Positions 1 through 15,294 of a DNA stretch of 64,000 nucleotides are shown one piece after another. A program made the position numbers and the translations under genes. Position 1 is the first letter of the stretch, and each line of letters begins with the position of its first letter. Below the pieces are notes generated by a model. The model worked only from the letters and a program-made list of their open reading frames with translations, was not told the DNA's origin and did no database searches. Origin of the DNA: a candidate division WOR-3 bacterium (lineage in GTDB: Bacteria; Hydrothermota; Hydrothermia; Hydrothermales; JAJRUZ01). The stretch is taken from contig JBDRZP010000014.1 in assembly GCA_039804025.1 (NCBI GenBank), positions 1 through 64,000 on the forward strand. The letters are read 5' to 3'.

Positions 1-504
1 TGGTGAAAGACCGAGTGTTGGTTCATCTAAAAGAAAAATTTCTGGATTATAGGAAAGGATTGTTGCAAGGGAAACCTTCTTTTTCTCTCCAAAAGAAAGA
101 TGATGGGGAATTCTTTCTTCAAATCCTGAAACCCCTGCTTTTTTAAGTGCATCTTTTACAATCTCATCTAAATTACCATTAAATCCAAAATTCTTTGGAG
201 CAAAGGCAACATCATCATAAACTTTTGGCATAAATAATGAATCATCTGGGTTTTCAAATAAAAAACCTATTTTTTTTCTTAAACTTTCATTAAATTCCTT
301 ACCATCAATTAAAACTTTTCCTTCATATTTTAAAAGACCTGCAATACATAAAAGAAAAGTTGTTTTACCAGAGCCATTTTCACCAATAATTGATAGAGTT
401 TCATTTTCATAAACCTTTAAATTTATTCCCTTTAAAACCTCCTTTTTATCCTCATAAGAAAATCTTAAATCTATTATTTCTATTTTTACCTTTCTATTTT
501 CCAT
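1..504 (-). CDS. cbiO: ECF transporter ATPase CbiO/NikO, C-terminus cut by window edge
   Basis: This is the cytoplasmic ABC ATPase that powers nickel/cobalt uptake together with CbiQ and CbiM. The first 168 codons are present. The Walker A motif GENGSGKT is at residues 41-48, the ABC signature LSFGE at 136-140 and Walker B IFLLDEP at 156-162. The Q-loop position reads FENPDD (Glu84) where the family usually has FQNPDD. The ATG at 504 overlaps the end of cbiQ by 19 nt, as is usual in such operons. The remaining C-terminus, including the H-loop, lies beyond base 1. Confidence 0.93.
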   Translation of the reverse strand, partial: MENRKVKIEIIDLRFSYEDKKEVLKGINLKVYENETLSIIGENGSGKTTFLLCIAGLLKYEGKVLIDGKEFNESLRKKIGFLFENPDDSLFMPKVYDDVAFAPKNFGFNGNLDEIVKDALKKAGVSGFEERIPHHLSFGEKKKVSLATILSYNPEIFLLDEPTLGLSP

Positions 505-1091
505 CCTTTTGAAACCATTGCTTTTAAAACTCTTTCACTTCTTTCATAAGTTCTTATGAATATGTTTCCTGAAAAAATTAAATAACTTTTAAAATCAGGA
601 TTTTTACCTTTTGAAATCATCGCCCTTTTCATCCTTTCAATCTCATCATAAAGAAGAAAAAAGAACCTGTATAAGAAAGAAAAAATAAGGGAAATTAAAA
701 AACCATAGGGAATTTTTTCAAAAATTTTAAAGAAATCTTCCATTTTTGTTGTAAAAAGGAAAATGATTATAAAAGATATTGAAAAAAGGGACTTTAAAAG
801 AGAGTATAAAAAACTTAATAAACTTTTGTTATTTAAAATGGAAAGCAGAAAAATAATTGCTAAAAAGGGTAAAATTAAAACAATTCTTTTTAAAAAATAA
901 AAAATGGGTATTTTTGAGATTATAAGGAAAATTGAGATTAATAAGAAAAAGGGGGAATAAAAAATAAGGTTCTGAGGTAAAAGGAGAATTAAAAAAAGAA
1001 GAAGAATTAAAAAAATAAATTTTATTGAAGGGGAAATTTTTTGCAAAATTCCCTTTTTAAAATAAAACCTGTCAATAAAATGATGCTTCAT
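486..1091 (-). CDS. cbiQ: ECF transporter transmembrane component CbiQ/NikQ
   Basis: This is the membrane T-component that couples the ATPase to the substrate-binding subunit. The 201 residues are very hydrophobic, with four to six predicted membrane spans. Two cytoplasmic coupling motifs are visible: RMKRAMISKGK in the middle and ERVLKAMVSKGW near the C-terminus. They correspond to the paired Ala-Arg-Gly motifs of EcfT proteins, here with Ser-Lys-Gly instead. The start overlaps the end of cbiM by 4 nt (ATGA type). It is translated within the nickel operon that begins near 3487. Confidence 0.92.
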   Translation of the reverse strand: MKHHFIDRFYFKKGILQKISPSIKFIFLILLLFLILLLPQNLIFYSPFFLLISIFLIISKIPIFYFLKRIVLILPFLAIIFLLSILNNKSLLSFLYSLLKSLFSISFIIIFLFTTKMEDFFKIFEKIPYGFLISLIFSFLYRFFFLLYDEIERMKRAMISKGKNPDFKSYLIFSGNIFIRTYERSERVLKAMVSKGWKIER

Positions 1092-1717
1092 ATTTTTTCA
1101 ATTTTTAAAATTTCGGGTTTTATCTTTTTTAAAAAATTTATCATAAAAACTGTAAATATTCCTTCAATTATACCTGCTATAAAATGGGAAAAAATCATAG
1201 GGAAAAAACTTTTGTAAAAAGAAATTTTACCTGAAATTGAAAGTTCAAGGGTTACAAAGAAACTGCCAAGACAAACTGTAAATATTGAAATTGAAAAGAT
1301 AAAAATGTTTTCAAATTTTGGGAAAATCTTGAAGAAAAATTTATAGATATAAAATCCTAAAATAGAGGAAATAAAGAGAGTATTGAAGGAGTTTGCTCCA
1401 ATTGTTAAAATTCCACCATGGGATAAAATCAATGCCTGAAGAAAAAGGGATAAAAAACAGATGAAAAATGAAGAAAAAGGTCCTAATATAAGGGAGATAA
1501 AAAAAGCACCAAGAAGATGAACCGATGTTCCATAAGGAACAGGAAAACTTATACTCTCTATTAAAAAAATAAAGGAGGCTGAAAGACCGAGAAGCGGAAC
1601 TCTTTCAGGGGAAATTTTTTTTATTATTTTTTTAATTGAATAAATAAGTGTCAAGATTGAAAAAGCATTTGTTAAAGAAACTGTCTTTACATCTAAAAAT
1701 CCATCAGGTATATGCAT
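1088..1717 (-). CDS. cbiM: Nickel/cobalt substrate-specific membrane component CbiM/NikM
   Basis: This is the S-component that binds the metal ion. The N-terminus MHIPDGFL is the hallmark of the family: in the known structures Met1 and His2 coordinate Ni2+/Co2+. A second conserved histidine lies in GTSVHLLG (His67), and the motif around TIGANSFN is also typical. The length of 209 residues fits a stand-alone CbiM without a fused CbiN. The start overlaps the nikL end by 14 nt. Linkage to NikR, NikK and NikL points to nickel rather than cobalt as substrate. Confidence 0.95.
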   Translation of the reverse strand: MHIPDGFLDVKTVSLTNAFSILTLIYSIKKIIKKISPERVPLLGLSASFIFLIESISFPVPYGTSVHLLGAFFISLILGPFSSFFICFLSLFLQALILSHGGILTIGANSFNTLFISSILGFYIYKFFFKIFPKFENIFIFSISIFTVCLGSFFVTLELSISGKISFYKSFFPMIFSHFIAGIIEGIFTVFMINFLKKIKPEILKIEKI

Positions 1718-2123
1718 CTTTTAACTTTTTATTTGCCATTATATAAAAAATTATTCCTGTGAAATTAAATATTATTGAAATACCAAAAAGGATTTTAAAA
1801 TAAATAGGAATTTTTGAACTCCTTATAAACTCTTCCTTTTCCAGATTTTTTATTTCAAATTCCTTTATAATTCCATGACCCATTCCATCATCAACCTCTA
1901 TTTTCCATTTACCAATTTTATCAGGGAAAAATAAAACCCTTCCATTTTTATCAAGGGTTCCTTCTGAAAAAATTTTACCATCAGGTGAATATATTTTATA
2001 ATCTGCAAAGGAAATCGGAGTTCCATCTTCATAAAAAAATCTTATACCTTTTGCATTTTCAAAAAATTCAAAATCAACACCATGGGAAATTAAAATCAAT
2101 GTGAATAAAATGTTAATGTGCAT
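1704..2123 (-). CDS. nikL: NikL-type accessory periplasmic/membrane component of the nickel ECF transporter
   Basis: This 139-residue protein has a short signal-like segment (1-13), a periplasmic Ig-like domain and one C-terminal membrane helix (about 108-129). The motif DDGMGHG (78-84) is typical of the NikL-like subunits that replace CbiN in some nickel ECF systems. Cleavage after Ser13 would expose His14 as the mature N-terminus. The start lies 28 nt inside the upstream nikK gene. The family call rests on motif memory and operon context; a CbiN-like role is inferred. Confidence 0.78.
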   Translation of the reverse strand: MHINILFTLILISHGVDFEFFENAKGIRFFYEDGTPISFADYKIYSPDGKIFSEGTLDKNGRVLFFPDKIGKWKIEVDDGMGHGIIKEFEIKNLEKEEFIRSSKIPIYFKILFGISIIFNFTGIIFYIMANKKLKDAYT

Positions 2124-2668
2124 ACCTTACCTTTCTCCCTTTTAATTAAAAGATTTAACCCTTTTTTAACTTTATAAGAATTTTTAAAAAATCCGCTTCC
2201 CTTTTCATTCATGAATTCATAATTTCCCTGAGGGAAATTTATTTCTTTATCTTTTGAAAAATCAAAATCCTTTAAATTTATTTCAAAATCATAATCTAAA
2301 TTTTTAAATTCTGTTAATTTTTCAACATAAAAATAATTCTTTCCTATATAAAAGATTTCTCCATCAGGCTTTGAAAGAATAAAGTAAATAAGATATACCC
2401 CTTCTTTATTTATTTTAAAAGAGGATAAAAGATAATTTTTTTCCTTTTTATATTCAAGATTGATTTCATTTCCATCAGGCTCAACAAGTTTAAACTCTTT
2501 TATGAGTTTTTCCTTTGGAGCAAATTCAGATTCAAAAATTTTGTGTCCTCCTTTTATAAATATCTTTATCTCCTCATTTAATTTTGGAAAAGGATTTGAT
2601 ATTTCTATCCAGAAATCATGGGAATATAAAAAATTTAAGAAAAATAAAATAAAAAATAATTTTTTCAT
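2096..2668 (-). CDS. nikK: NikK-type periplasmic protein (DUF4198) of the nickel ECF transporter
   Basis: This 190-residue secreted protein has a signal peptide (1-16) followed by HDFWIE, the usual DUF4198 start. The rest reads as a beta-sandwich. DUF4198/NikK proteins accompany CbiMQO-type nickel transporters and are thought to deliver or capture the metal in the periplasm. A Shine-Dalgarno-like stretch lies in the 10-nt gap behind the upstream outer-membrane gene, so the two are co-transcribed. Calling it NikK relies on the N-terminal motif and the operon. Confidence 0.8.
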   Translation of the reverse strand: MKKLFFILFFLNFLYSHDFWIEISNPFPKLNEEIKIFIKGGHKIFESEFAPKEKLIKEFKLVEPDGNEINLEYKKEKNYLLSSFKINKEGVYLIYFILSKPDGEIFYIGKNYFYVEKLTEFKNLDYDFEINLKDFDFSKDKEINFPQGNYEFMNEKGSGFFKNSYKVKKGLNLLIKREKGKVCTLTFYSH

Positions 2669-2678
2669 TTTTCTCTCC

Positions 2679-3422
2679 TTAAAATCTATACATTAAAGTT
2701 AAATTTGCCCTCAAATTTGTTGATTTTGAATTACCAAATCCGATTCCTGTTTTTATAAGAGAGTTTTCAATTGGGATGTAAATTCCAGGAAGGAAAAATA
2801 AGGAACCTTCATAATCCCCGAGAATTTCAATCCCACCTGCAATACCATGCGGGTCAGAGGATAAAGGATTTTTAATGCCAAATGCCCATTCCTTTAAAAA
2901 TTCATCACCATCCTTTATAAAATTTAAATTTAAACATATATTTGAATGGACACCAAAATCCTTACTTAAAATTATTTTTCCTTCAAAAACTTCTTTTCCA
3001 TCAAGATATTCTCTGCTTCTTTTAAAAGGAGTTTCATAAGATAAAACAAAAGCAAAATCAATAAATGTAAATTTTTTAATTCTTCCTTGAAGTGAAAATG
3101 CTATCGCCTCAATGAAAGGAGAAAGTTCAATATTATTTAGAGTATATCCTTTACCAAATTTTGAAAAATGGGTATGAACATCAAACATAATATAATCTGT
3201 TATTCCATAGGAAATTCCTGGTGTAAATTCCCAGTGGTCTAAATCAGGATTATCCTTATTTTCAACAAAATAATCATAATGAAGATGAAATACTTTTTGA
3301 TTTTTTGGTGCAGTTGAATATGATTCCATTTCTATATATTCCATTGCATGATGAGCATAAATCTTTGAAAAAGTTATATCAGTAATTAAAAGGACACTTA
3401 TTATTACATATATTTTTTTCAT
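2679..3422 (-). CDS. Predicted outer-membrane beta-barrel protein, first gene of the nickel operon
   Basis: This 247-residue protein starts with a signal peptide (1-23) whose cleavage would leave HHAMEYIEME at the mature N-terminus. Alternating polar/hydrophobic segments suggest a small barrel, and the chain ends in aromatic MYRF, as many outer-membrane proteins do. It contains several histidines (for example HLHYDYF and HTHFSKFG). It is the promoter-proximal gene of the NikR-type operon, so a role in bringing nickel across the outer membrane is plausible but unproven. It is not a TonB-dependent receptor. I do not recognise a named family. Confidence 0.6.
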   Translation of the reverse strand: MKKIYVIISVLLITDITFSKIYAHHAMEYIEMESYSTAPKNQKVFHLHYDYFVENKDNPDLDHWEFTPGISYGITDYIMFDVHTHFSKFGKGYTLNNIELSPFIEAIAFSLQGRIKKFTFIDFAFVLSYETPFKRSREYLDGKEVFEGKIILSKDFGVHSNICLNLNFIKDGDEFLKEWAFGIKNPLSSDPHGIAGGIEILGDYEGSLFFLPGIYIPIENSLIKTGIGFGNSKSTNLRANLTLMYRF

Positions 3423-3439
3423 TTTTCCCCTCCCCTTTT

Positions 3440-3456
3440 AAAGGATTTGAACCTTT
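3440..3456 (-). promoter_or_regulatory. T-arm-like leader hairpin, copy 1
   Basis: The transcript contains a 5-bp stem AAAGG/CCTTT closing a 7-base loop TTCAAAT. This is the geometry and consensus of a tRNA T-arm. It sits 20 nt (counted from the CC) before the ATG of the outer-membrane gene and ahead of its GGGGAGG Shine-Dalgarno. Five other genes in this window have the same element at almost the same distance. Confidence 0.6.
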
Positions 3457-3460
3457 ATTT

Positions 3461-3487
3461 GTGTTACATTTTTAAAAAATGTATTAC
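3461..3487. promoter_or_regulatory. Putative NikR operator
   Basis: The site reads GTGTTAC-N13-GTATTAC. It resembles the GTGTTAC-N13/14-GTAACAC consensus described for NikR in delta-proteobacteria. Its core is a perfect 19-bp palindrome (TACATTTTT, central A, AAAAATGTA). It begins 6 bp downstream of the -10 box of the nickel operon and covers the expected transcription start, so bound NikR would block initiation. A nikR gene lies directly upstream. Confidence 0.75.
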
Positions 3488-3493
3488 TGTTTA

Positions 3494-3522
3494 ATTATAC
3501 ATTAATAAGAGAAGAAATTCAA
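3494..3522 (-). promoter_or_regulatory. Sigma70-type promoter of the nickel operon
   Basis: Read on the minus strand there is TTGAAT (3522-3517), a 17-bp spacer and TATAAT (3499-3494). The predicted start near 3487 falls inside the NikR operator. The transcript would carry the T-arm-like hairpin and a Shine-Dalgarno before the first gene. Confidence 0.8.
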
Positions 3523-3535
3523 GTTTTTAATTTAT

Positions 3536-3949
3536 TTAAATTTCTTTTCCTGTAGTTGCGATACTTAGCGAACTGTATTTAACGCCTTTTGTAGATTTTA
3601 ATTTATTTGCGAGAGTTTCTATATCTTTTGGTTTTCCTTTTGCAAGGACTATTTCAAGGCAATTATTCTCATCAAGATGAACATGTTGTGAAGAGATTAT
3701 GATTTCATGAAAATGGTGCTCAATATTTAGTAATTTATTTACAAGTTCCCTTTTATGGTGATTGTAAATAAGTATAATTGCACCTACAACTTCTTTACCC
3801 TCCATCCATTCCTTTTTGACAAGATATTCTCTTATTAGGTCTCCTATTGCTTTTGATCTTGTTGGATAATTTCTCTTTTTAATCTCCTTATCAAATTTTA
3901 ATACGAGATCACTATCAAGTGATACACTGAATCTTTTTAGTTTTGTCAA
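3536..3949 (-). CDS. nikR: Nickel-responsive transcriptional regulator NikR
   Basis: NikR represses nickel uptake genes when nickel is bound. The 137 residues comprise an N-terminal ribbon-helix-helix domain (about 1-45) and a C-terminal ACT-type metal domain. The nickel site is visible: His89-x-His91-x5-Cys97, plus a histidine cluster at 78-81. These match His87, His89, Cys95 and His76 of E. coli NikR. The start is TTG, 7 nt after a strong AAGGAGGT. Its target is very probably the operator at 3461-3487; I see no such site in its own promoter. Confidence 0.96.
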   Translation of the reverse strand: MTKLKRFSVSLDSDLVLKFDKEIKKRNYPTRSKAIGDLIREYLVKKEWMEGKEVVGAIILIYNHHKRELVNKLLNIEHHFHEIIISSQHVHLDENNCLEIVLAKGKPKDIETLANKLKSTKGVKYSSLSIATTGKEI

Positions 3950-3971
3950 TTAAATTACCTCCTTATTAAAC

Positions 3972-4000
3972 ATTATAAATGATAAATTTAAAGTTTTCAA
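3972..4000 (-). promoter_or_regulatory. Promoter of nikR
   Basis: On the minus strand TTGAAA (4000-3995) and TATAAT (3977-3972) are separated by 17 bp. The predicted start lies close to 3965, only a few bases before the AAGGAGGT of nikR. It is divergent from the -10 box at 4027. Confidence 0.72.
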
Positions 4001-4026
4001 ATTGTATTTTAACTTATTTCTTTTTT

Positions 4027-4032
4027 TATAAT
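4027..4032 (+). promoter_or_regulatory. -10 box (TATAAT), leaderless arrangement
   Basis: TATAAT ends 8 nt before the ATG at 4041, with no Shine-Dalgarno between. A weak TTGTAT lies 19 bp upstream. Transcription would start at or next to the start codon. Confidence 0.55.
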
Positions 4033-4040
4033 TTTTTAAA

Positions 4041-6005
4041 ATGATCTTAGAATATCCTTCTTCAATAATATTTGATTTTGATTTTCAAAATATATTAAAA
4101 AAAGATGAGAAAATTATTGTTTTAAAAAGTAAGGATCTGTTGAAAGCTGAGATTTATGCTTATAATCTTATTAAATTTCTTAAATATCCTACTATTACAA
4201 TTTATTATGATTTTGAGGATAGGGAGCTCTTTCTTATAAAATTTTTCAAGATTCTGAAAGATTATGGAGAAGAGAAAGGTGAATTCTTTTACGAAAGTAT
4301 TGACCAATACAGGAATGTTGGGGAAGACCTTGTTATTTTTTTGCCCTATCTTCCAGAATCACTTTTTCCTTATTTAAAAAATCTTTCAGAATTTTTTCTG
4401 AACTTGAAATTTTTTGTATTATCCAGGGGGTCTTGCGATTTTATATATTCTCTTGATTTAGATGAAATTAATTCAAAAAAAATAGATTCCTTCATTGAGA
4501 GTGTTTATGAAAATTTTGAAAGGATTTTTAATGATAATAGAGATATAAAAAATATTCTTTCTTTAACTTTAAGTTTGCCATTATTCAACGCAAGTATTAT
4601 TTCTCATTTGACTGGTTTAGAGGAAAGTATTGTGAATGGAAATATAAATTTCATAAATAAAAATTTTTTCCCACTTTATAAGATTAGAAGAACTTTAAAG
4701 GATAATTTTTATTATTTAACATTTTCAAAATTTATAAAGGAAAAATTTGAAAAATTAATTTCCCTTGATAAGGAAATTTACAAAAGAATAGGAGAGATTT
4801 TTGAGAATGAAAAATTAATTGAGGAGGCAATTTTATTATTTAGAAAGTATGAGAACTTTGAAGAAATGGAGAATTTAATTAAAAAAAATATTGAAAAGGT
4901 TCTGTTTGATTATCACCTTTCTTATTATACAAGATATATAGTAAAAGAAATTGAGGATGAGAAGTTAAAAACTTATCCTTTCCTTTTAGCCCTTAAAGGG
5001 GAGTTCTATTTGAGGAAATATGATTTTGAAAAAAGTGAAAAATTAATAAAAAATTCAATTGAAAATTCAGAAGAGAAAGAAAGGGAATATTTAAAAATTT
5101 TTGAACTTTTATATAACTGGGAAACCGGTAAGGATGATAAAATAATTTCAGAGTGGGAAAGTTTGAATAAGGGTGAAATTTCTAAAGCTGTGAGAGCTTA
5201 TTTTCTTTATAGGGTGGGAGGAAGTTTTCTGTTTATGGAAGAAACAAAAAGAGCAGAGGAGTGTCTACTTGAAGCTCTTTCCCTTGCAATGGATTTAGGA
5301 TATTCTGACTTTGTGGGTGATATAGCAAATACTCTGGGTTATGTTGTAAAAGCATACGGCTATGATCTTGAAAGGGCAATTGTACTTTTTAAGAAAAGAG
5401 CCTATACTGATATACCTAATTTTAAAAATATAATAGGGCTCTTTAATCTCGGTTATGTTTATGCTTTTCTTGGAAAATTTGACGAAGCAGGGTTGTGTCT
5501 TAAGGATATAGAAAATCTTGGAAAATTGTTCCCTGAAAATTATGATGGGACTGCATATTTTTATTTAAAGGGAATTATACATTTTTTTAAAAGGGAATTT
5601 GATGAGGCAATTTCATCATTTGAAGAAATTTTGAAAATATCAAAAAGACCTCTCACTATTTTTAATATTTCTCTTTATATGGCTAAATGTTATTTCTTTA
5701 AAGGTGATGCTGATAAGGGATTTTATTACCTTGATAAATCCTTAGAATATTATAAACCTTCCTCTAAAATTGAGCAAAATTCTGTTAATTTAGTAAATGC
5801 AATAGGTTTTTATAAAAGTGGAAAAAAGGAAAAAATGTTTGATTCATTAGAAGAAATAAAGCAAAAGGAAAAATTTCTTTCAAACGAGGAGAAATTAATA
5901 TTTTATTATCTTTTAGAGATTTTAGGTGATAAAAAATATGAGGGTAAATTTGATAAGTTAAGAGAAAAGTTAAAAGCAATTAACTTTTTAGAAGGTTTTA
6001 AGTAA
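4041..6005 (+). CDS. TPR-rich protein resembling a MalT/STAND regulator without P-loop or DNA-binding domain
   Basis: This 654-residue protein looks cytosolic. The first 300 residues resemble the NTPase and winged-helix part of MalT-like proteins: a sensor-like LSRGS follows a VIFLPYL strand. The place where Walker A is expected reads IIVLKSKDLLKAEIY, so nucleotide binding is doubtful. From about 300 to the end there are repeated TPR-like helical hairpins, for example around LNLGYVYAFLGKFDEA-like segments. No LuxR-type helix-turn-helix is seen. It overlaps the convergent trmI by 8 nt. Function unknown; a protein-protein scaffold is the safest reading. Confidence 0.6.
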   Translation: MILEYPSSIIFDFDFQNILKKDEKIIVLKSKDLLKAEIYAYNLIKFLKYPTITIYYDFEDRELFLIKFFKILKDYGEEKGEFFYESIDQYRNVGEDLVIFLPYLPESLFPYLKNLSEFFLNLKFFVLSRGSCDFIYSLDLDEINSKKIDSFIESVYENFERIFNDNRDIKNILSLTLSLPLFNASIISHLTGLEESIVNGNINFINKNFFPLYKIRRTLKDNFYYLTFSKFIKEKFEKLISLDKEIYKRIGEIFENEKLIEEAILLFRKYENFEEMENLIKKNIEKVLFDYHLSYYTRYIVKEIEDEKLKTYPFLLALKGEFYLRKYDFEKSEKLIKNSIENSEEKEREYLKIFELLYNWETGKDDKIISEWESLNKGEISKAVRAYFLYRVGGSFLFMEETKRAEECLLEALSLAMDLGYSDFVGDIANTLGYVVKAYGYDLERAIVLFKKRAYTDIPNFKNIIGLFNLGYVYAFLGKFDEAGLCLKDIENLGKLFPENYDGTAYFYLKGIIHFFKREFDEAISSFEEILKISKRPLTIFNISLYMAKCYFFKGDADKGFYYLDKSLEYYKPSSKIEQNSVNLVNAIGFYKSGKKEKMFDSLEEIKQKEKFLSNEEKLIFYYLLEILGDKKYEGKFDKLREKLKAINFLEGFK

Positions 6006-6759
6006 GGTTTCCAAAAATTAAGTATCCTGTGTGGGTAATTCCAAACTCCTTTGGTCTTGTTCCTATATCTCTTATCATAATTTCTCTCAATAAAATTTCA
6101 TATACTCTTATTCTTACAAATCCATTATTTTCCATTTCCTTTTTAGTTTTCTGAATCTGTTCTATATTTGGTGATAAAGAGCCAAGAGGATGTCCTTTTT
6201 TCAAAATTTTTATGGTATGTCTTATAACACTCCATGGTTCTGGAATATCTATAAATACTGCATCTACTTTTATATCAGGAAATCCTTCTTTTTCCACATC
6301 TCTTAAGTGAAACTCTATGTTATCAAAAAGTTTATACCTTAAAATATTTTCTTTTGCAAGTTCATAAAATTCCTTTCTTCTTTCAAAGGTATAAATTTTT
6401 CCTTTTTTCCCAACTATACTTGATATGAGGGTTAAAAAAGAACCACTTCCTGTTCCAACTTCACAAACTTTTGAGCCTGCTCTTATTCCAAGTTCAAGGA
6501 TTATAAATCCTGCATCCTTTGGATAAATTATTGTTGTTTTTCTTTTTATTTTCAACATCAAATCACTTGTTGAGGGTTTTAAAACAAAAAATTTTTTATT
6601 TTTTGAACTCATAAGTTTATCGCCATATTTCAAATTCTCAGGAATAACAATTTTTCCAAGGTGTGTATGGATTTCTTTTAAGGGTTCCTTTTCAATAATT
6701 CTTTCAAATTTATTATCCTCACTTAAAATTAAAATTTTTTCACCTTTTTTAACTTTCAT
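5998..6759 (-). CDS. trmI: tRNA (adenine-N1)-methyltransferase TrmI
   Basis: TrmI uses S-adenosylmethionine to make m1A58 in the tRNA T-loop, a modification common in thermophiles and Actinobacteria. The 253-residue length fits bacterial TrmI. The SAM-binding motif VGTGSGS is at 101-107 and the catalytic motif DIPEPW at 171-176, matching the family DxPxPW. The short N-terminal beta domain is present. It is the second gene of a pair with ksgA, overlapping it by 4 nt. The adenine it targets is also present in the loop of the T-arm-like leader hairpins in this window. Confidence 0.92.
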   Translation of the reverse strand: MKVKKGEKILILSEDNKFERIIEKEPLKEIHTHLGKIVIPENLKYGDKLMSSKNKKFFVLKPSTSDLMLKIKRKTTIIYPKDAGFIILELGIRAGSKVCEVGTGSGSFLTLISSIVGKKGKIYTFERRKEFYELAKENILRYKLFDNIEFHLRDVEKEGFPDIKVDAVFIDIPEPWSVIRHTIKILKKGHPLGSLSPNIEQIQKTKKEMENNGFVRIRVYEILLREIMIRDIGTRPKEFGITHTGYLIFGNLT

Positions 6760-7508
6760 AAAATTATTTTAATATATTCCTCAATAGAAATTTGATCAGG
6801 TCTTTTTTCTCTAATTTCTTCTGGAACTTTTTCGTAAAGACCGAATTCCTTTAATATTTTACCTATTTTTTTCCTTCTCTCCTGGAAGGCTCTTCTTACT
6901 AATTTAAAAAAAATTTCTTCCTTTTCTTTTTCAATTTGTAATTTTTCCTTTGGTATCATTCTGAAAAAGAGGGAATTGACTTTTGGTTTTGGGTAAAAAA
7001 AATGTGCTGGGATTGGCATTAAAACTTTTATATCCGTATAAAAGTTTATGAATATTGTTAGGGATGAAAACTCTTTTGTTCCTGGTTTTGCATTAATTCT
7101 TTCAACAACCTCTTTTTGAAGGGTTAAATAGATTTCTGAGAAGTTTTCCCTTTCCCTTATCAATCTAATAAGAAGTGGTGTTGTAATATTATAGGGAACA
7201 TTGGAAAGAAGTTTTACTTTTTTTAGATTAAATTTATCTAAAATTTCCTTTATGTTTATTTTAAGAAAATCACCTTCAATGAGAGAAAAATCAAGGTCAA
7301 GAATATTTTCCCTTAGATATCTACATAAATTTCTATCAATTTCAATTGCGATTACCTTGACTTTTTTTTCAAGAAGTATCTTTGTTAATATTCCTTTACC
7401 AGGACCTATTTCAAGAACATATTCCCCCTTTTTTAAATTCATTTTTTCTATCATTTCTCTTGCCACTTTCTTATTCACAAGAAAAACCTGCGAGAATCTT
7501 TTTTTCAC
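6756..7508 (-). CDS. rsmA: 16S rRNA dimethyladenosine transferase RsmA/KsgA
   Basis: RsmA dimethylates two adjacent adenines in helix 45 of 16S rRNA. The N-terminus FSQVFLVNK, the SAM motif LEIGPGKG (33-40) and the catalytic NVPY (103-106) are all typical, as is the C-terminal basic segment QERRKKIGK. The 250-residue length is slightly short but complete. The start is GTG. A TATAAT ends 6 nt upstream and no Shine-Dalgarno is seen, so the mRNA is probably leaderless. Confidence 0.95.
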   Translation of the reverse strand: MKKRFSQVFLVNKKVAREMIEKMNLKKGEYVLEIGPGKGILTKILLEKKVKVIAIEIDRNLCRYLRENILDLDFSLIEGDFLKINIKEILDKFNLKKVKLLSNVPYNITTPLLIRLIRERENFSEIYLTLQKEVVERINAKPGTKEFSSLTIFINFYTDIKVLMPIPAHFFYPKPKVNSLFFRMIPKEKLQIEKEKEEIFFKLVRRAFQERRKKIGKILKEFGLYEKVPEEIREKRPDQISIEEYIKIIL

Positions 7509-7514
7509 TTACTA

Positions 7515-7520
7515 ATTATA
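7515..7520 (-). promoter_or_regulatory. -10 box (TATAAT) of rsmA-trmI, leaderless arrangement
   Basis: On the minus strand TATAAT ends 6 nt before the GTG start of rsmA. There is no Shine-Dalgarno in between. Confidence 0.6.
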
Positions 7521-7539
7521 AATTATCCTCATACAGAAC

Positions 7540-7568
7540 TTGCATTTTTAATAAACAAATGATATATT
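7540..7568 (+). promoter_or_regulatory. Promoter of the superoxide dismutase gene
   Basis: TTGCAT and TATATT are separated by 17 bp. The leader of about 45 nt ends in AAGGAGGT, 7 nt before the ATG, so this gene is expressed with a conventional ribosome-binding site. Confidence 0.6.
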
Positions 7569-7618
7569 TATATTCAGTTTAAAATTAAAACTAAATTAAA
7601 ATAAAAAGGAGGTTAAAA

Positions 7619-8239
7619 ATGGCTTTTAAATTACCCGATTTACCTTATTCTTATGATGCTTTGGAGCCTTATATAGATGCAAAAACAATGGAGATTCATC
7701 ACACAAAGCATCATGCTGCCTATGTAAATAATCTAAATAATGCTCTCTCAAAATATCCCGAACTTGAAAAATATTCTCTTGAGGAAATTTTAAGAAATCT
7801 TGATTCTATTCCAGAGGATATAAAGATTACTGTGCGAAATAATGGTGGAGGGCATTTTAATCACTCACTTTTCTGGGAAGTTATGAAAAAAGATGGTGGA
7901 GAGCCTAAAGGAGAGCTTTTAAAGGCAATAGAAAGGGATTTTGGTTCTTTTTCTTCTTTTAAAGAAAAATTTGCAAATGCTGCAAAGAATCATTTTGGTT
8001 CAGGATGGGCTTGGCTTTCTCTATCAAGATTTGGAAAACTTTATGTTTTTTCAACTCCTAATCAGGATAATCCATTAATGATAGGTTATATTCCCATTCT
8101 TGGACTTGATGTATGGGAGCATGCTTATTACTTAAAGTATCAAAATAGAAGAGCAGAATATGTGGATAACTGGTTTAATGTGATAAACTGGGATAAAGTA
8201 AAAGATAATTATGAGGAGGCTTTAAAAAAGATTAGATAG
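7619..8239 (+). CDS. sodA: Superoxide dismutase, Fe/Mn family (probably Mn type)
   Basis: The enzyme dismutates superoxide to oxygen and hydrogen peroxide. The four metal ligands are visible as His27, His82, Asp164 and His168 (in [11 protein letters not shown]). Gly residues before His82 and Gln149 in TPNQDNP follow the manganese pattern, although cambialistic use cannot be excluded. The 206 residues have no signal peptide, so it acts in the cytoplasm. It has its own promoter and a strong Shine-Dalgarno, and suggests the organism meets some oxygen. Confidence 0.96.
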
Positions 8240-8312
8240 AAAACTCAAAAAAGAAGATTTTTAATTTTTTTAATTCTTAAGGATCTATTTTTTTATTAAA
8301 AATAATTTATTT

Positions 8313-8318
8313 TAAAAT
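8313..8318 (+). promoter_or_regulatory. -10 box (TAAAAT) of panB, leaderless arrangement
   Basis: TAAAAT ends 6 nt before the panB ATG. The bases between are TTTTAT-like with no Shine-Dalgarno. Confidence 0.5.
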
Positions 8319-8324
8319 TTTTAT

Positions 8325-9116
8325 ATGAAAAAATTAACAATTCACGATATAATTGCAAAAAAGGGAAAGGAAAAAATTGTAGCCCTTACAAGTTATGATT
8401 ATCAAATGGCTAAAATTGAAGATGAAATAGGAATTGATATTATTCTTGTTGGTGATAGTGTTTCTAATGTTTTGCTTGGATATGATAACACTTTAAGAAT
8501 AGGAATGGATGAAATGCTCGTTTTTACAAGGGCAGTTGCAAGGGGTGTAAAATATTCCCTTCTTGTCGGTGATATGCCCTTTTTATCCTTTCAGATTTCA
8601 AAAGAAGAAGCAATAAGAAATGCTGGTGAATTTATAAGAGCAGGATGTGATGCTGTTAAAATTGAAGGAGGAGAAGAGTCCCTTGAAGTAATTGAATACC
8701 TTGTTAAAAACGGTATTCCTGTAATGGGTCATATAGGTTTGACTCCACAGTGGATTTTAAAAATGGGAGGTTATAAAGTTCAGGGAAAAACTGAAGAAAG
8801 TATAAAAAAATTAAAAAGAGATGCTGAACTTTTAGAAAATGGAGGAGTTTTTTCCATTGTTCTTGAAGGTGTAAAAGAAGATGTAGCAAAAGAAATCACA
8901 GAGAGTTTAAAAATTCCAACAATAGGAATTGGGTCTGGAAGATACTGTGATGGTCAGATTCTTGTTGTATGGGATATATTAGGTTATACAGAAAAACCCT
9001 ATCCCAAGTTTGTAAGAACCTATGAAGATTTGAGGGAAAGAATAAAAAATGCCCTTTTAAGATTTAAAGAGGATGTTATTAAAGGAAATTACCCTTCTGA
9101 AAAAGAAATCTATTAA
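8325..9116 (+). CDS. panB: 3-methyl-2-oxobutanoate hydroxymethyltransferase (PanB)
   Basis: PanB makes ketopantoate from 2-oxoisovalerate and methylenetetrahydrofolate, the first step of pantothenate and coenzyme A synthesis. LTSYDYQMA, VGDSVSNVLLG (Asp44) and VGDMPF (Asp83) carry the substrate and Mg2+ contacts of the family, and KIEGG and VLEGV follow. The 263-residue length is normal. It stands alone, without panC or panD nearby. It ends 4 nt into the convergent HAD gene. Confidence 0.95.
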   Translation: MKKLTIHDIIAKKGKEKIVALTSYDYQMAKIEDEIGIDIILVGDSVSNVLLGYDNTLRIGMDEMLVFTRAVARGVKYSLLVGDMPFLSFQISKEEAIRNAGEFIRAGCDAVKIEGGEESLEVIEYLVKNGIPVMGHIGLTPQWILKMGGYKVQGKTEESIKKLKRDAELLENGGVFSIVLEGVKEDVAKEITESLKIPTIGIGSGRYCDGQILVVWDILGYTEKPYPKFVRTYEDLRERIKNALLRFKEDVIKGNYPSEKEIY

Positions 9117-9799
9117 ATCAATTTTTCAAAAAATTTTTTTAAGTCCCTGAAATTATCAAAAACAAAATTAGCACCTGCTTTTAAAAGTTCCTCCTTTGAA
9201 AATCTAAAAATAGCCATTCCTATGGATTTAAAGCTTACCTTTTTTGCAGCCTCAATATCTCTTGGTGTATCTCCAATTACATAAACATCTAAAATTCTAA
9301 AATTTTCTCTTTCTGCAATTTTTTTTCCCTTTTCATATGCTTTTCTTAAAATTTCACTTCTTTCCCAGGAATCAGAGGCATAACCGCCAAACTTAAAGTA
9401 TTTTAAAAGATAAGAGGGTTTTAATTTTATCTCAGCACCTTCTTCAAGATTTCCTGTAGCAAGTCCTAATAAAAATTTTTCCTTTTTCTGTGCCCATTCG
9501 AGAAATTCCGGAACTCCCTCAAAGATTTTATAACCTGGATTATCTATTTCCTTTTTGAGATTATCAAGATAAATTTCAAGAATTTCTTCAATTTCTTTTT
9601 TTTCTGGTTTTTTATTTAATTTTTTTAAAAATACTTCCTCAATAATTAAGGGATCTGTTTTTCCATCAGGAGAAATATCTTTCATAGCTTCTTTTAATCC
9701 ATATTTTTTAAAAAAAGCCTTATCAATAGACCTTGTTCCTGCTCCACCTGAATAAATAAGTGTTCCGTCAATATCAAAAAGGAGCATGATTTTATCCAT
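9113..9799 (-). CDS. HAD-superfamily hydrolase, phosphoglycolate-phosphatase-like
   Basis: The protein has the HAD motif I FDIDGTLI near its start, a helical cap, motif II ATGNL and motif III/IV VIGDTPRDIEAA, so it is a phosphatase of the Gph/PpaX-like branch. The exact substrate is not evident. I place the start at the ATG at 9799 (228 residues), not at an in-frame ATG 12 codons upstream. The nearer start lies 7 nt after a TATAAT, matching the leaderless pattern of its neighbours, and a conserved HAD begins right there. It converges on panB with a 4-nt overlap. Confidence 0.82.
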   Translation of the reverse strand: MDKIMLLFDIDGTLIYSGGAGTRSIDKAFFKKYGLKEAMKDISPDGKTDPLIIEEVFLKKLNKKPEKKEIEEILEIYLDNLKKEIDNPGYKIFEGVPEFLEWAQKKEKFLLGLATGNLEEGAEIKLKPSYLLKYFKFGGYASDSWERSEILRKAYEKGKKIAERENFRILDVYVIGDTPRDIEAAKKVSFKSIGMAIFRFSKEELLKAGANFVFDNFRDLKKFFEKLI

Positions 9800-11728: not shown

Positions 11729-12680
11729 TGAGGGAATGAGTGGAAGTTTGAAGATATTTTCTGCACCTGATGTATTACAACTAATTTCCCAGCAAAGAAA
11801 AAAAGGTGTTGTTTATTTTTATAAGGGTAAAACAGAAGCAGCAGTTGGTTTTGAAGATGGAAAAGTTGTTGCTGCCTATATTATAAGAGAAGGAGAGTTT
11901 GAATCCCTTGAAAATTTTTTAGTAAAATCAGGTCTTGTATCAGAACAGGATTATAAAACAGCAAAGGAAATCCAGGAAGATACAGGAGAGCCCATTGAGG
12001 AAATTCTTGTAAAGGAAGGTGTAATAACTTCTGAGAATTTGATTGAGATAATTTCCTTTAAGATTCAGGAAGTTATAGATGAAGTTATAACCTGGAGAGA
12101 GGGAATATATAAATTTGAGCCTGATAAGGAGATTTATAAGTTTTCAAAGATTAAGATAAGTCTTCCTCTTGATTCCCTTTTAATGGAAGCAGCTTGGCAT
12201 CAGGATGAGTGGCCAAGAATAAAGGAGAAAATCAAAAGTTCTGATATGGTTTTTAAAATTTCATCAAAAAAACCACAGATTGAACTTGAGCTGGAAAAGG
12301 ATGAGAAAAAAGTTTTGAAGCTTGTAAATGCAAGAAGAACAGTTCAGGAAATTGTAAATTTAAGTGGTCTTGGAAAATTTAAGACCTATTTTGCTTTATA
12401 CAGGTTATATGAAATGGGAAGAATAGAACCTGTGGAAAAACTTACTGAAAAAGAAGAATTTGTAGAGGAAGTTGTTAAAGAGGATAAAGTTAAAAGAGAA
12501 AGGGAAAAAACTTTGATTTTACCTAACCTTACACTTCGTTTAATTTTCATTTTTCTTTTTGTTTTTCTGTTTTTTATTTTGAAAGTTTATAAAAGGGGAA
12601 TTTTCCCTTATATTGAAAAAATTGTTCCTGAACAAAAAGTTTTTAGTGTTGATGAAAATTTATTCAAAATTTCACCATGA
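11715..12680 (+). CDS. PATAN/DUF4388-domain protein with C-terminal membrane helix
   Basis: The N-terminal 100 residues (SGSLKIFSAPDVLQLIS, then VVYFYKGKTEAAVGFEDGKVV-like strands) match DUF4388, a PATAN domain common in response-regulator and gliding-associated proteins. A GspE-N-like helical region (about 75-130) follows, with a winged-helix-like segment (about 195-235) and one membrane span near 270-290. It starts at the ATG 7 nt after AGGAGGT, not at the preceding TTG. It shares an operon with the TPR protein upstream and meaB downstream (ATGA overlap). Signalling or scaffold role inferred. Confidence 0.7.
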   Translation: MKQFSEGMSGSLKIFSAPDVLQLISQQRKKGVVYFYKGKTEAAVGFEDGKVVAAYIIREGEFESLENFLVKSGLVSEQDYKTAKEIQEDTGEPIEEILVKEGVITSENLIEIISFKIQEVIDEVITWREGIYKFEPDKEIYKFSKIKISLPLDSLLMEAAWHQDEWPRIKEKIKSSDMVFKISSKKPQIELELEKDEKKVLKLVNARRTVQEIVNLSGLGKFKTYFALYRLYEMGRIEPVEKLTEKEEFVEEVVKEDKVKREREKTLILPNLTLRLIFIFLFVFLFFILKVYKRGIFPYIEKIVPEQKVFSVDENLFKISP

Positions 12681-13600
12681 ATTCAATTAGGGAACTTTCA
12701 AAACTTATAACAAAAATTGAAAATTTTGATGAACTTGATTCAGATGTTTTAAAGAGAATTTTTGAAAAAGAAGGTAAAGCACACAGGATAGGTTTTACAG
12801 GTCCTCCAGGTGCAGGAAAAAGCACTTTGAGTGATAGGATAGCTTCACTTTTAGCAGAGGAAAAAAATAAGGTTGGAATTATCGCAGTTGATCCTACAAG
12901 TCCTTTCACAGGTGGAGCAATTCTTGGGGATAGAATAAGAATGGAGGAAGCTTCAAAGAAAGGTGTTTTTATTAGAAGTTTGGGTTCAAGAGGAGGTATA
13001 GGAGGTTTATCAAGGAGAACTTACCTTTCGTCTCTTTCCATGGAATCTTTTGGAATGGATTATATCATAATTGAAACAGTGGGAGTAGGTCAATCAGATT
13101 TTGAAATAAGATATATTGCTGATACAACTATCGTTGTTTTAACTCCTGAATCCGGTGATTATGTTCAAGCTATGAAGGCAGGTTTAATGGAGATTGGTGA
13201 TATTTATGTTATAAATAAGTCAGATAGACCTGGTGCAAAGGAAATAAAAAATGAAGTTGAATCTGCACTTTTACTTTTACCATCAAATTCTGAGTGGAAA
13301 GTGAAAGTAATTCTTACAAGTGGAATAAAGGGCGAAGGTATAGAAGAGTTGAAAAATCTTATAATTACTCATAAAAAATTTTTAGAAGAAACAAAATTAA
13401 AGGATAAAATGATTAGAGAAAGAAGAAAAAGATTTTTAATGGAATTTTTAAGGGATGAGATATGGGATGAAATTGAATTTTTTCTTGAAAAGAATGGTCT
13501 AATTGAGAAATTTTTAAAAGATATAGAAATGGGAAAACCTTTTAGAGAGATAAAAAAAGAATTTTTTGAATTTTTTAAAAAGGGGTTAAAATCCCCTTAA
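12677..13600 (+). CDS. meaB: MeaB/ArgK-type G-protein chaperone of methylmalonyl-CoA mutase
   Basis: MeaB guards adenosylcobalamin loading and protects methylmalonyl-CoA mutase, using GTP. The P-loop GPPGAGKS is at 42-49. [19 protein letters not shown] and ETVGVGQSD are family signatures, and NKSD is the guanine-specificity motif. The 307-residue length is normal. The start overlaps the previous gene by 4 nt, and the mutase large subunit begins 17 nt downstream. Operon context therefore confirms the partner. Confidence 0.95.
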
Positions 13601-13617
13601 ACTTTTTTAAAAAAGAT

Positions 13618-15294
13618 ATGGAAAAGGAAAAAATTTTAGAGGAAAAGAAGAAATGGGAAGAGTGTGTAAGAAAAAATTACAAGGATGAAAAAGAAAAATA
13701 TCAAACTATATCAGGAATTGAAATAAAGGATATTTATACCCCTCTTGATGTTGAAGATCTTGATTATTTGAGAGACCTTGGTTTTCCTGGTCAATATCCC
13801 TTCACAAGAGGAGTTTATGGAAATATGTATAGAGGTAAGTTATGGACAATCAGACAATTTTCAGGTTTTGGAACAGCAAAGGATACAAATGAAAGGTTTA
13901 AGTTTCTTTTAAAACACGGTCAAACAGGTCTCTCAACAGCCTTTGATATGCCAACTCTTATGGGTTATGATTCAGACCATCCAATGGCACAGGGTGAAGT
14001 GGGAAGAGAGGGTGTTGCTGTTGATACTCTTAAAGATTTTGAAATTCTTTTTGATGGTATTCCCCTTGATAAGGTTTCCACTTCCTTTACAATCAATTCA
14101 CCGGCAGCAATTATTCTTGCAATGTATATTGCTGTCGGAGAAAAACAGGGTGTGCCTTCCCATAAGTTAAGAGGAACAATTCAGAATGATATATTAAAGG
14201 AGTATCACGCTCAGAATGAGTGGATTTTTCCACCTGAACCTTCCATAAAGATAATTACTGATATTTTTGAATTTGCAAAGGATCATCTTCCAAAGTTTAA
14301 TACAATTTCCATATCAGGTTATCATATAAGAGAGGCTGGTTCAACAGCAGTTCAAGAGCTTGCCTTTACCCTTGCAGATGGTTTTGCCTATGTTGAGGCA
14401 GGAATAAGGAGAGGTTTAAATGTTGATGATTTTGCAAGCAGGTTATCCTTTTTCTTTAATGCCCATATGGATTTCTTTGAAGAAATTGCAAAATATAGAG
14501 CTGCAAGGAGAATATGGGCAAGGGAAATGAAAGAAAGATACAAGGCAAAAGATCCAAGGTCAATGATGTTAAGGTTTCATACCCAGACCGCAGGATGCTC
14601 CTTACAGGCTCAGCAACCTCTTGTTAATATAATTAGGACAACAATTGAGGCTCTCTCAGCAGTTTTAGGAGGGACTCAGAGTCTCCACACAAATTCTTAT
14701 GATGAAGCCTTACAGTTACCGGCAGAATTACCTGCTGTTATTGCAGTGAGAACCCAGCAGGTTATAGCTTATGAAAGTGGTGTTATAAATACGATTGACC
14801 CCTTAGCTGGAAGTTATTTTGTGGAATCACTTACAAATAAGATGGAGGAGGAGGCTTATAAGTATTTTGATGAGATTTTAAAAATGGGTAATGGTTCTTT
14901 CCTTGATGGTGTTTTAAAAGGCATAGGGGAAGGATTTTTTAAAAGGGAAATAGCAAATGCTGCTTATGAATTTCAAAAGAGAGTTGAATCACAGGAATAT
15001 ATTATTGTTGGGGTTAATAAGTATGTTGACCCTGAAGAAAAAATAGAAGTTCCACCTTTTAAAATGGATCCTGAACTTGAGAAAAAGCAGATTGAATTTT
15101 TGCATAAAGTAAAATCTGAAAGGGATAATATAGCGACTCAAAATGCCCTTAATGAACTTGGAAAAGCAGCTGATAGAGGTCTCAATTTGATGCCTTATAT
15201 TATTGAATGTGTTAAAAGATATGCTACTGAAGGAGAAATAATTGATACTCTGAAAGTAAGGTATGGAGTATTTAGGGAAAAGGTTGTTGTTTGA
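13618..15294 (+). CDS. mcmA: Methylmalonyl-CoA mutase, large (catalytic) subunit
   Basis: The enzyme interconverts (R)-methylmalonyl-CoA and succinyl-CoA with adenosylcobalamin. Its 558 residues cover only the TIM-barrel substrate domain ([24 protein letters not shown], the TNSYDEAL and [10 protein letters not shown] motifs). The cobalamin-binding domain is absent, as in two-subunit archaeal and thermophile enzymes. A separate small subunit is therefore needed and is not in this window. It lies 17 nt after meaB; the epimerase of the same pathway is at 48757. Confidence 0.96.

Follow-up and report, generated by a model that had tools for sequence, protein, structure and literature searches.

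The barrel gene that heads the operon described here is linked to NikR and to nickel import by strong support from gene order and regulation. The best explanation of these data, and one that we consider probable, is a NikR-repressed nickel operon whose barrel admits Ni2+ without TonB. Nickel passage is the candidate function of the barrel, and a NikR-controlled, His-rich barrel present in several little-known phyla is a good candidate for TonB-independent nickel entry. Nickel crossing of the outer membrane is established for a few TonB receptors, and a single-copy, nickel-regulated, dedicated barrel offers a compact candidate, open to testing, for metal entry that costs no energy. The otherwise well-described NikKMLQO importer would gain a candidate outer-membrane part, and a protein family without annotation is named across Verrucomicrobiota, Neomarinimicrobiota, Krumholzibacteriota, WOR-3/Hydrothermota and others. 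Our searches of an open-access library found no description of this barrel. A non-TonB nickel barrel is unnamed in the consulted portions of PMC4493636, PMC545781, PMC11247825, PMC2667541 and PMC5140060, aside from a remark on passive porins by the authors of work on cable bacteria, who give TonB receptors and passive porins as options for nickel entry (PMC11247825).

The nickel operon and its operator

The window, which is the whole 64,000-nucleotide stretch analysed, starts at base 1 of contig C14 of the 2.1-Mb genome G000 (47 contigs). On the minus strand it carries nikR, the barrel gene, nikK, nikL, nikM, nikQ and nikO, in this order. The regulator gene nikR (3536-3949) matches NF003381 (E 7e-50), NikR_C and RHH_1, all over cut-off, and a 113-base intergenic stretch that contains the operator separates it from the barrel gene (2679-3422, 247 amino acids), for which no match to Pfam or NCBIfam was found at E up to 1. 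Genes for the NikM/CbiM substrate-specific ECF subunit (1088-1717), the NikQ/CbiQ ECF T component (486-1091) and the NikO/CbiO ECF ATPase (1-504) match CbiM, CbiQ and ABC_tran over the Pfam gathering scores and so supply the M, Q and O core of a NikKMLQO importer. The matches of the nikK-like periplasmic protein (DUF4198; 2096-2668; 29.8 bits, gathering cut-off 34) and of the NikL family ECF subunit (1704-2123; 35.5 bits, curated cut-off 100) fall below cut-off; these assignments are backed by homologues and by the conserved gene order in relatives. The original prediction of a run of barrel, NikK, NikL, CbiM, CbiQ and CbiO genes agrees with this order, with NikO truncated by the contig start.

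A NikR-type operator, GTGTTACATTTTTAAAAAATGTATTAC (GTGTTAC-N13-GTATTAC), lies at 3461-3487, with no strand assigned, and encloses a palindromic core, TACATTTTTAAAAAATGTA, of 19 bases around a single central base (3465-3483). Both elements had been claimed for the predicted start of the operon, and direct reading bears them out. A predicted sigma-70 promoter, TTGAAT-17-TATAAT, identified by consensus match only, occupies 3494-3522 on the minus strand. Its -10 element ends at 3494, which places the expected start at about 3485-3488, at the operator edge; in the searched stretch, 2 promoter-type matches were found and 1.2 were expected. Compared with the published delta-proteobacterial NikR consensus, GTGTTAC-N13/14-GTAACAC (PMC545781), the site matches at 12/14 bases of the N13 form with correct spacing. 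Its right half-site matches at 5/7 bases as an inverted repeat and, read as a direct repeat of GTGTTAC, at 6/7. The intergenic stretch of the sister species G002 is identical at 108 of 113 bases and has GTGTTAC, a direct copy of the left half-site, as its right half-site; the operator in this genus is therefore not a clean inverted repeat.

The site is the sole match with at most 3 mismatches in the window, and shuffling the 64 kb 100 times yields at least one such match in 38 cases, so the window sequence alone gives the operator no significance. Its credibility comes from its position at the promoter and from its recurrence in relatives, and it is this recurrence, not the window by itself, that rejects a chance origin. 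With nikR in the genome and an operator (12/14, right half 5/7) at the promoter, the operon has two of the features expected of a NikR-regulated unit.

NikR-controlled NikKMLQO (nikMLKQO) importers are known from comparative genomics of delta-proteobacteria (PMC545781; PMC2667541). The system in the window shares with them the regulator, the operator consensus GTGTTAC-N13-GTAACAC and the K, L, M, Q and O components. It differs in being headed by an outer-membrane barrel; none is named for the known system in the consulted portions of those two papers, and PMC2667541 contains neither of the terms "outer membrane" and "TonB".

A nickel enzyme is encoded elsewhere in the genome. Contig C11 of G000 encodes the large subunit of a [NiFe] hydrogenase, 487 residues long and carrying both Cys-x-x-Cys pairs (RICGVC, DPCHAC), near a HypB-like gene and a gene read as HypF-like. 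Matches to PF00374 occur in 36/39 barrel genomes (over 450 bits in 8), with G000 the only one checked by reading. Complex I relatives are expected to match just two parts of the PF00374 profile. Many of these matches cover only two profile parts, and we do not take them as proof of a nickel enzyme. The contig that carries the nickel operon also has, at 12677-15294, genes that by our reading encode MeaB and the B12-dependent (cobalt) enzyme methylmalonyl-CoA mutase.

Predicted structure of the barrel

An AlphaFold2 model built from a 28-row alignment has 12 strands (mean pLDDT 87.5). The C-terminal residue is Phe in 27 of the 28 rows, including the window protein, and Trp in one. H24 directly follows a signal-peptide-like stretch that, by our reading, ends in Ala; His-His is thus the presumed mature N-terminus, HHAMEYIEMESY, of a protein with 224 mature residues. 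In the model, with faces assigned via strand parity, His makes up 7% and Asp plus Glu 17% of the inner face, versus 0.8% and 2.6% of the outer face. Residues D50, E65, H83, H85, E130, E199 and the motif H24-H25-x-x-E28 do not vary among the 28 rows or the seven new homologues. Because the peptide patterns of our genome scan contained His-His and H46/H48, conservation at these positions in the pattern-derived sequences is partly by construction. Pattern-free HMM scans correct for this bias, and all seven clear homologues found in that way retain H24, H25, E28, H83 and H85. Two points count against the favoured explanation: H46, H48 and H63 are not invariant, and residues 1-8 of the modelled mature form, the His-His tail, have pLDDT below 50, so that the placement of the tail is of low confidence.

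TonB receptors have about 22 strands. The 12 predicted strands of the window barrel, and the absence of a Plug or TonB_dep_Rec match at E up to 1, rule out a TonB receptor, as had been predicted for the first gene of the operon. TonB-dependent nickel receptors (FrpB4, FecA3, CntO, NikH and others; PMC11247825, PMC5140060) resemble the barrel in serving an outer-membrane nickel import step under or beside NikR, and differ in their plug domain and in size.

Solved structures searched by sequence returned no meaningful relative. By structure, the top match is FapF (5o68; Z 21.5), followed by the COG4313/Phenol_MetA_deg channel Pput2725 (PDB 4rl8; Z 20.4), each over 211-212 residues, and then by KdgM. 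Pput2725 and FapF are 12-stranded barrels of similar size with a segment ahead of strand 1; in Pput2725, the first 14 residues fill the lumen (PMC4493636). Their identity to the window barrel is 9-13%, however, and the window barrel is distinguished by its hydrophilic His/Asp/Glu lining and its place in a nickel operon, whereas COG4313 channels belong to aromatic degradation and FapF to amyloid export. As for membership in COG4313, the barrel has the predicted 12 strands and no sequence match to PF13557 at E up to 1; one of 28 members of the barrel's own family matches PF13557, at E 0.049. That these top neighbours carry hydrophobic molecules or secrete amyloid, and not metals, counts against a nickel channel.

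Association of the barrel with nickel genes and NikR

A protein search of 60 relatives found the barrel in 6 genomes, its own included, and the same 6 came back when 147 genomes of the phylum were searched with a profile. Peptide patterns run against 84,980 species genomes picked out 29 loci that, by the taxon labels of the records themselves, belong to Verrucomicrobiota/Kiritimatiellae, Neomarinimicrobiota, Krumholzibacteriota, Eisenbacteria, Aminicenantes, Endomicrobia, Lentisphaerae and Hydrothermota/WOR-3, with one bin each under the labels Clostridia and Deltaproteobacteria. In 29/29 genomes, the barrel gene has a single copy. We also ran a profile, with no peptide pattern, against 288 genomes from the class to which G152 belongs; 21 matches were clear, 7 of these being new, and 2 were weak. 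Merged and stripped of duplicates, these sources comprise 39 genomes, made up of that of the window plus 38 more; the weak homologues G184 and G242, which lie outside nickel loci, were left out before counting. A tblastn search of PLSDB returned no match for this barrel or for a second barrel described below, and plasmid-borne spread was rejected on that ground.

The barrel lies within 5 kb of nik genes in 37/39 genomes (36/38 others and the window). The original prediction had put this co-occurrence up for checking and would have been refuted by homologues located mainly away from nickel genes; the outcome favours it, although two of the 39 loci, L034 and L039, have no nik gene within 5 kb and count against the favoured explanation. 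Among the 38 other loci, nikK is found within 5 kb of the barrel in 32, nikL in 29, nikM in 28, nikR in 24, nikQ in 21 and nikO in 20, the last counts being depressed by short contigs and short loci. Reduced units also occur: L036 consists of nikR and the barrel only, L017 of barrel and nikK, and L033 of barrel, nikK and nikL. At L034, the solitary barrel has a 12/14 site 43 bp upstream. At L039 there is no operator, the genome lacks NikR, and the barrel adjoins genes reading as exbB-exbD-tonB. The barrel of this deltaproteobacterial bin (L039:10001-10522) carries HHAMEYIEMDSY, and a masked N stretch crosses the gene.

Operator-like sites recur at these loci. We sought them upstream of the barrel, or upstream of nikR where nikR comes before the barrel, and compared them with a background of 1950 windows drawn at random from these loci, some windows including true sites. 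Sites of at least 11/14 were present in 22/39 genomes versus 63/1950 background windows, and sites of at least 12/14 in 17/39 versus 46/1950. Previously, in 455 kb from 32 sources, 17 sites had reached 12/14 or better where mononucleotide shuffles predict 0.4, and 15 of these 17 lay near nikR or the barrel. L022, L023 and L037 have a perfect 14/14 operator, and the site is often upstream of nikR where nikR comes first (L015, L018, L023 and L029-L032). Counting against the favoured explanation, the operator scores below 11/14 at 17/39 loci, some with an adjacent nikR.

Of the 29 pattern-scan genomes, 26 have the regulator itself. Within the class that includes G152, NikR occurs in 20/21 genomes with a clear barrel versus 91/267 others (Fisher p 2.4e-8, ignoring kinship), where the others include the 2 weak-match genomes, both without NikR. 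In the phylum of the window, NikR is found in 5/6 barrel genomes versus 56/141 others (p 0.045, again ignoring kinship; 61 matches over cut-off in all). The co-occurrence is not reciprocal, as NikR-bearing genomes mostly lack the barrel. Joint absences are seen in two genomes: G001 (L009), of the same genus, retains the barrel-nik operon, but no operator precedes it and a search of the genome for NikR found none, and G151 (L017) lacks both NikR and operator. Conversely, an operator or nikR accompanies the barrel even without transporter genes at L034 and L036. The consensus match, the two joint absences and loci of the L034/L036 type together suggest that NikR binds at 3461-3487.

A model for nickel entry, its rivals and other outer-membrane solutions

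The site, the promoter match, the operon, the conservation, the fold prediction and the hydrogenase gene, all read from sequence or modelled from it, suggest the following scheme. When nickel is sufficient, nickel-bound NikR would occupy 3461-3487 over the transcription start and keep the six-gene uptake operon off; in nickel shortage, the barrel, NikK, NikL and the NikMQO pump would be co-expressed. The 12-stranded barrel, presumably located in the outer membrane, may pass Ni2+, free or as a small complex, to the periplasm without TonB. The conserved His, Asp and Glu residues of the inner wall and the His-His N-terminal tail would be likely ligands for selectivity or gating, and their presence suggests selective ion entry. 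Periplasmic NikK and NikL would take up the ion and hand it to NikM, and NikQ and NikO would power its entry to the cytoplasm, where it could supply the [NiFe] hydrogenase. A hand-over from barrel to NikK is suggested by their tight link, the two genes being adjacent in 32/38 loci. One finding counts against the barrel as the nickel route: G000 also encodes TonB and three TonB-receptor matches, and these receptors could carry nickel.

In a different reading, which we consider unlikely but the most serious of the rivals, the barrel admits not the aquo ion but a nickel chelate such as nickel-histidine or an organic nickelophore; the conserved residues inside would then bind this ligand, with NikK as the partner that binds the chelate. 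Periplasmic Ni-(L-His)2 is recognised behind the outer-membrane receptor FrpB4 in Helicobacter pylori (PMC5140060), and COG4313 relatives import organic molecules (PMC4493636). However, no gene for chelator biosynthesis was noticed in an unsystematic look through the listed open reading frames of the loci, and the inner wall rich in His, Asp and Glu fits a bare ion.

Less probable still is a non-channel role, in which the barrel would be a nickel-binding scaffold, a sensor or an export partner, at the surface or facing the periplasm, that merely shares the operon. Conductance is poor in narrow 12-stranded barrels whose N-terminus is inserted, and Pput2725 opens only above 150 mV (PMC4493636); the top structural match, FapF, exports a polypeptide, and at L017 the barrel is paired with nikK alone. 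Repression by nickel through NikR and its operator fits import and not export, however, and some other genomes of the phylum have, next to nikR, a gene for a TonB receptor, which is an importer. Cobalt import for B12 is very improbable. In its favour, cobalt importers also use CbiM, CbiQ and CbiO, a cobalt role is predicted for the NikKMLQO of five proteobacteria (PMC2667541), and a methylmalonyl-CoA mutase-like gene, by our own reading, lies nearby (13618-15294). Against it, the operon adjoins nikR and a NikR site, has nikK and nikL instead of cbiN, and belongs to a genome with a [NiFe] hydrogenase. No Rfam riboswitch family, cobalamin included, was found in window positions 1-9500 or in 15 of the 38 loci, and riboswitch control was rejected for these stretches.

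Entry of Ni2+ through the barrel, the reading we prefer, can be extended into a bolder proposal that we put forward tentatively, at somewhat less than even chances. The barrel would define a new TonB-independent, nickel-selective channel family, paired with NikK, in which an inner ladder of His, Asp and Glu residues together with the His-His mature N-terminus serves as selectivity filter or gate. If this is true, nickel operons would have recruited outer-membrane doors several times, namely this barrel, the TonB receptor and a dissimilar His-His barrel.

The latter two come from 20 regions around NikR genes of the phylum. In 4 of the 20 (L091, L092, L093 and L098), a TonB-receptor gene adjoins nikR, an arrangement that points to TonB-dependent uptake linked to NikR in other families of this phylum. 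A ZnuA-like gene follows the TonB receptor in L092, L093 and L098, and Pfam confirms ZnuA in L098 only. In 3 others, a second barrel-like protein of 347-352 amino acids is encoded between nikL and nikM (L082:4000-5043, L081:3800-4852 and L099:3985-5040; genomes G022, G025 and G028). Its presumed mature N-terminus is HHGVA[SA]LGAAGLEGPGAP, beginning HHGVASLG, and it holds the nikL-nikM position in 3/3 carriers among 147 genomes of the phylum. The L082 protein has a weak PF13557 match (E 4.6e-4), just under the gathering score. We do not claim homology of the two His-His barrels, for which the hhalign probability is 5%. Given these TonB receptors and other barrels in nickel loci, the studied barrel probably represents one solution among several for the outer-membrane nickel step.

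Two smaller observations concern neighbouring genes. Between nikR and nikM, L087:6034-6666, in another of the 20 NikR regions, encodes a third, smaller barrel-like secreted protein without a Pfam match. In G184, four near-identical tandem open reading frames for a small Cys-rich, lipoprotein-like protein (L153:4102-5460) lie directly 3' of the distant barrel relative.
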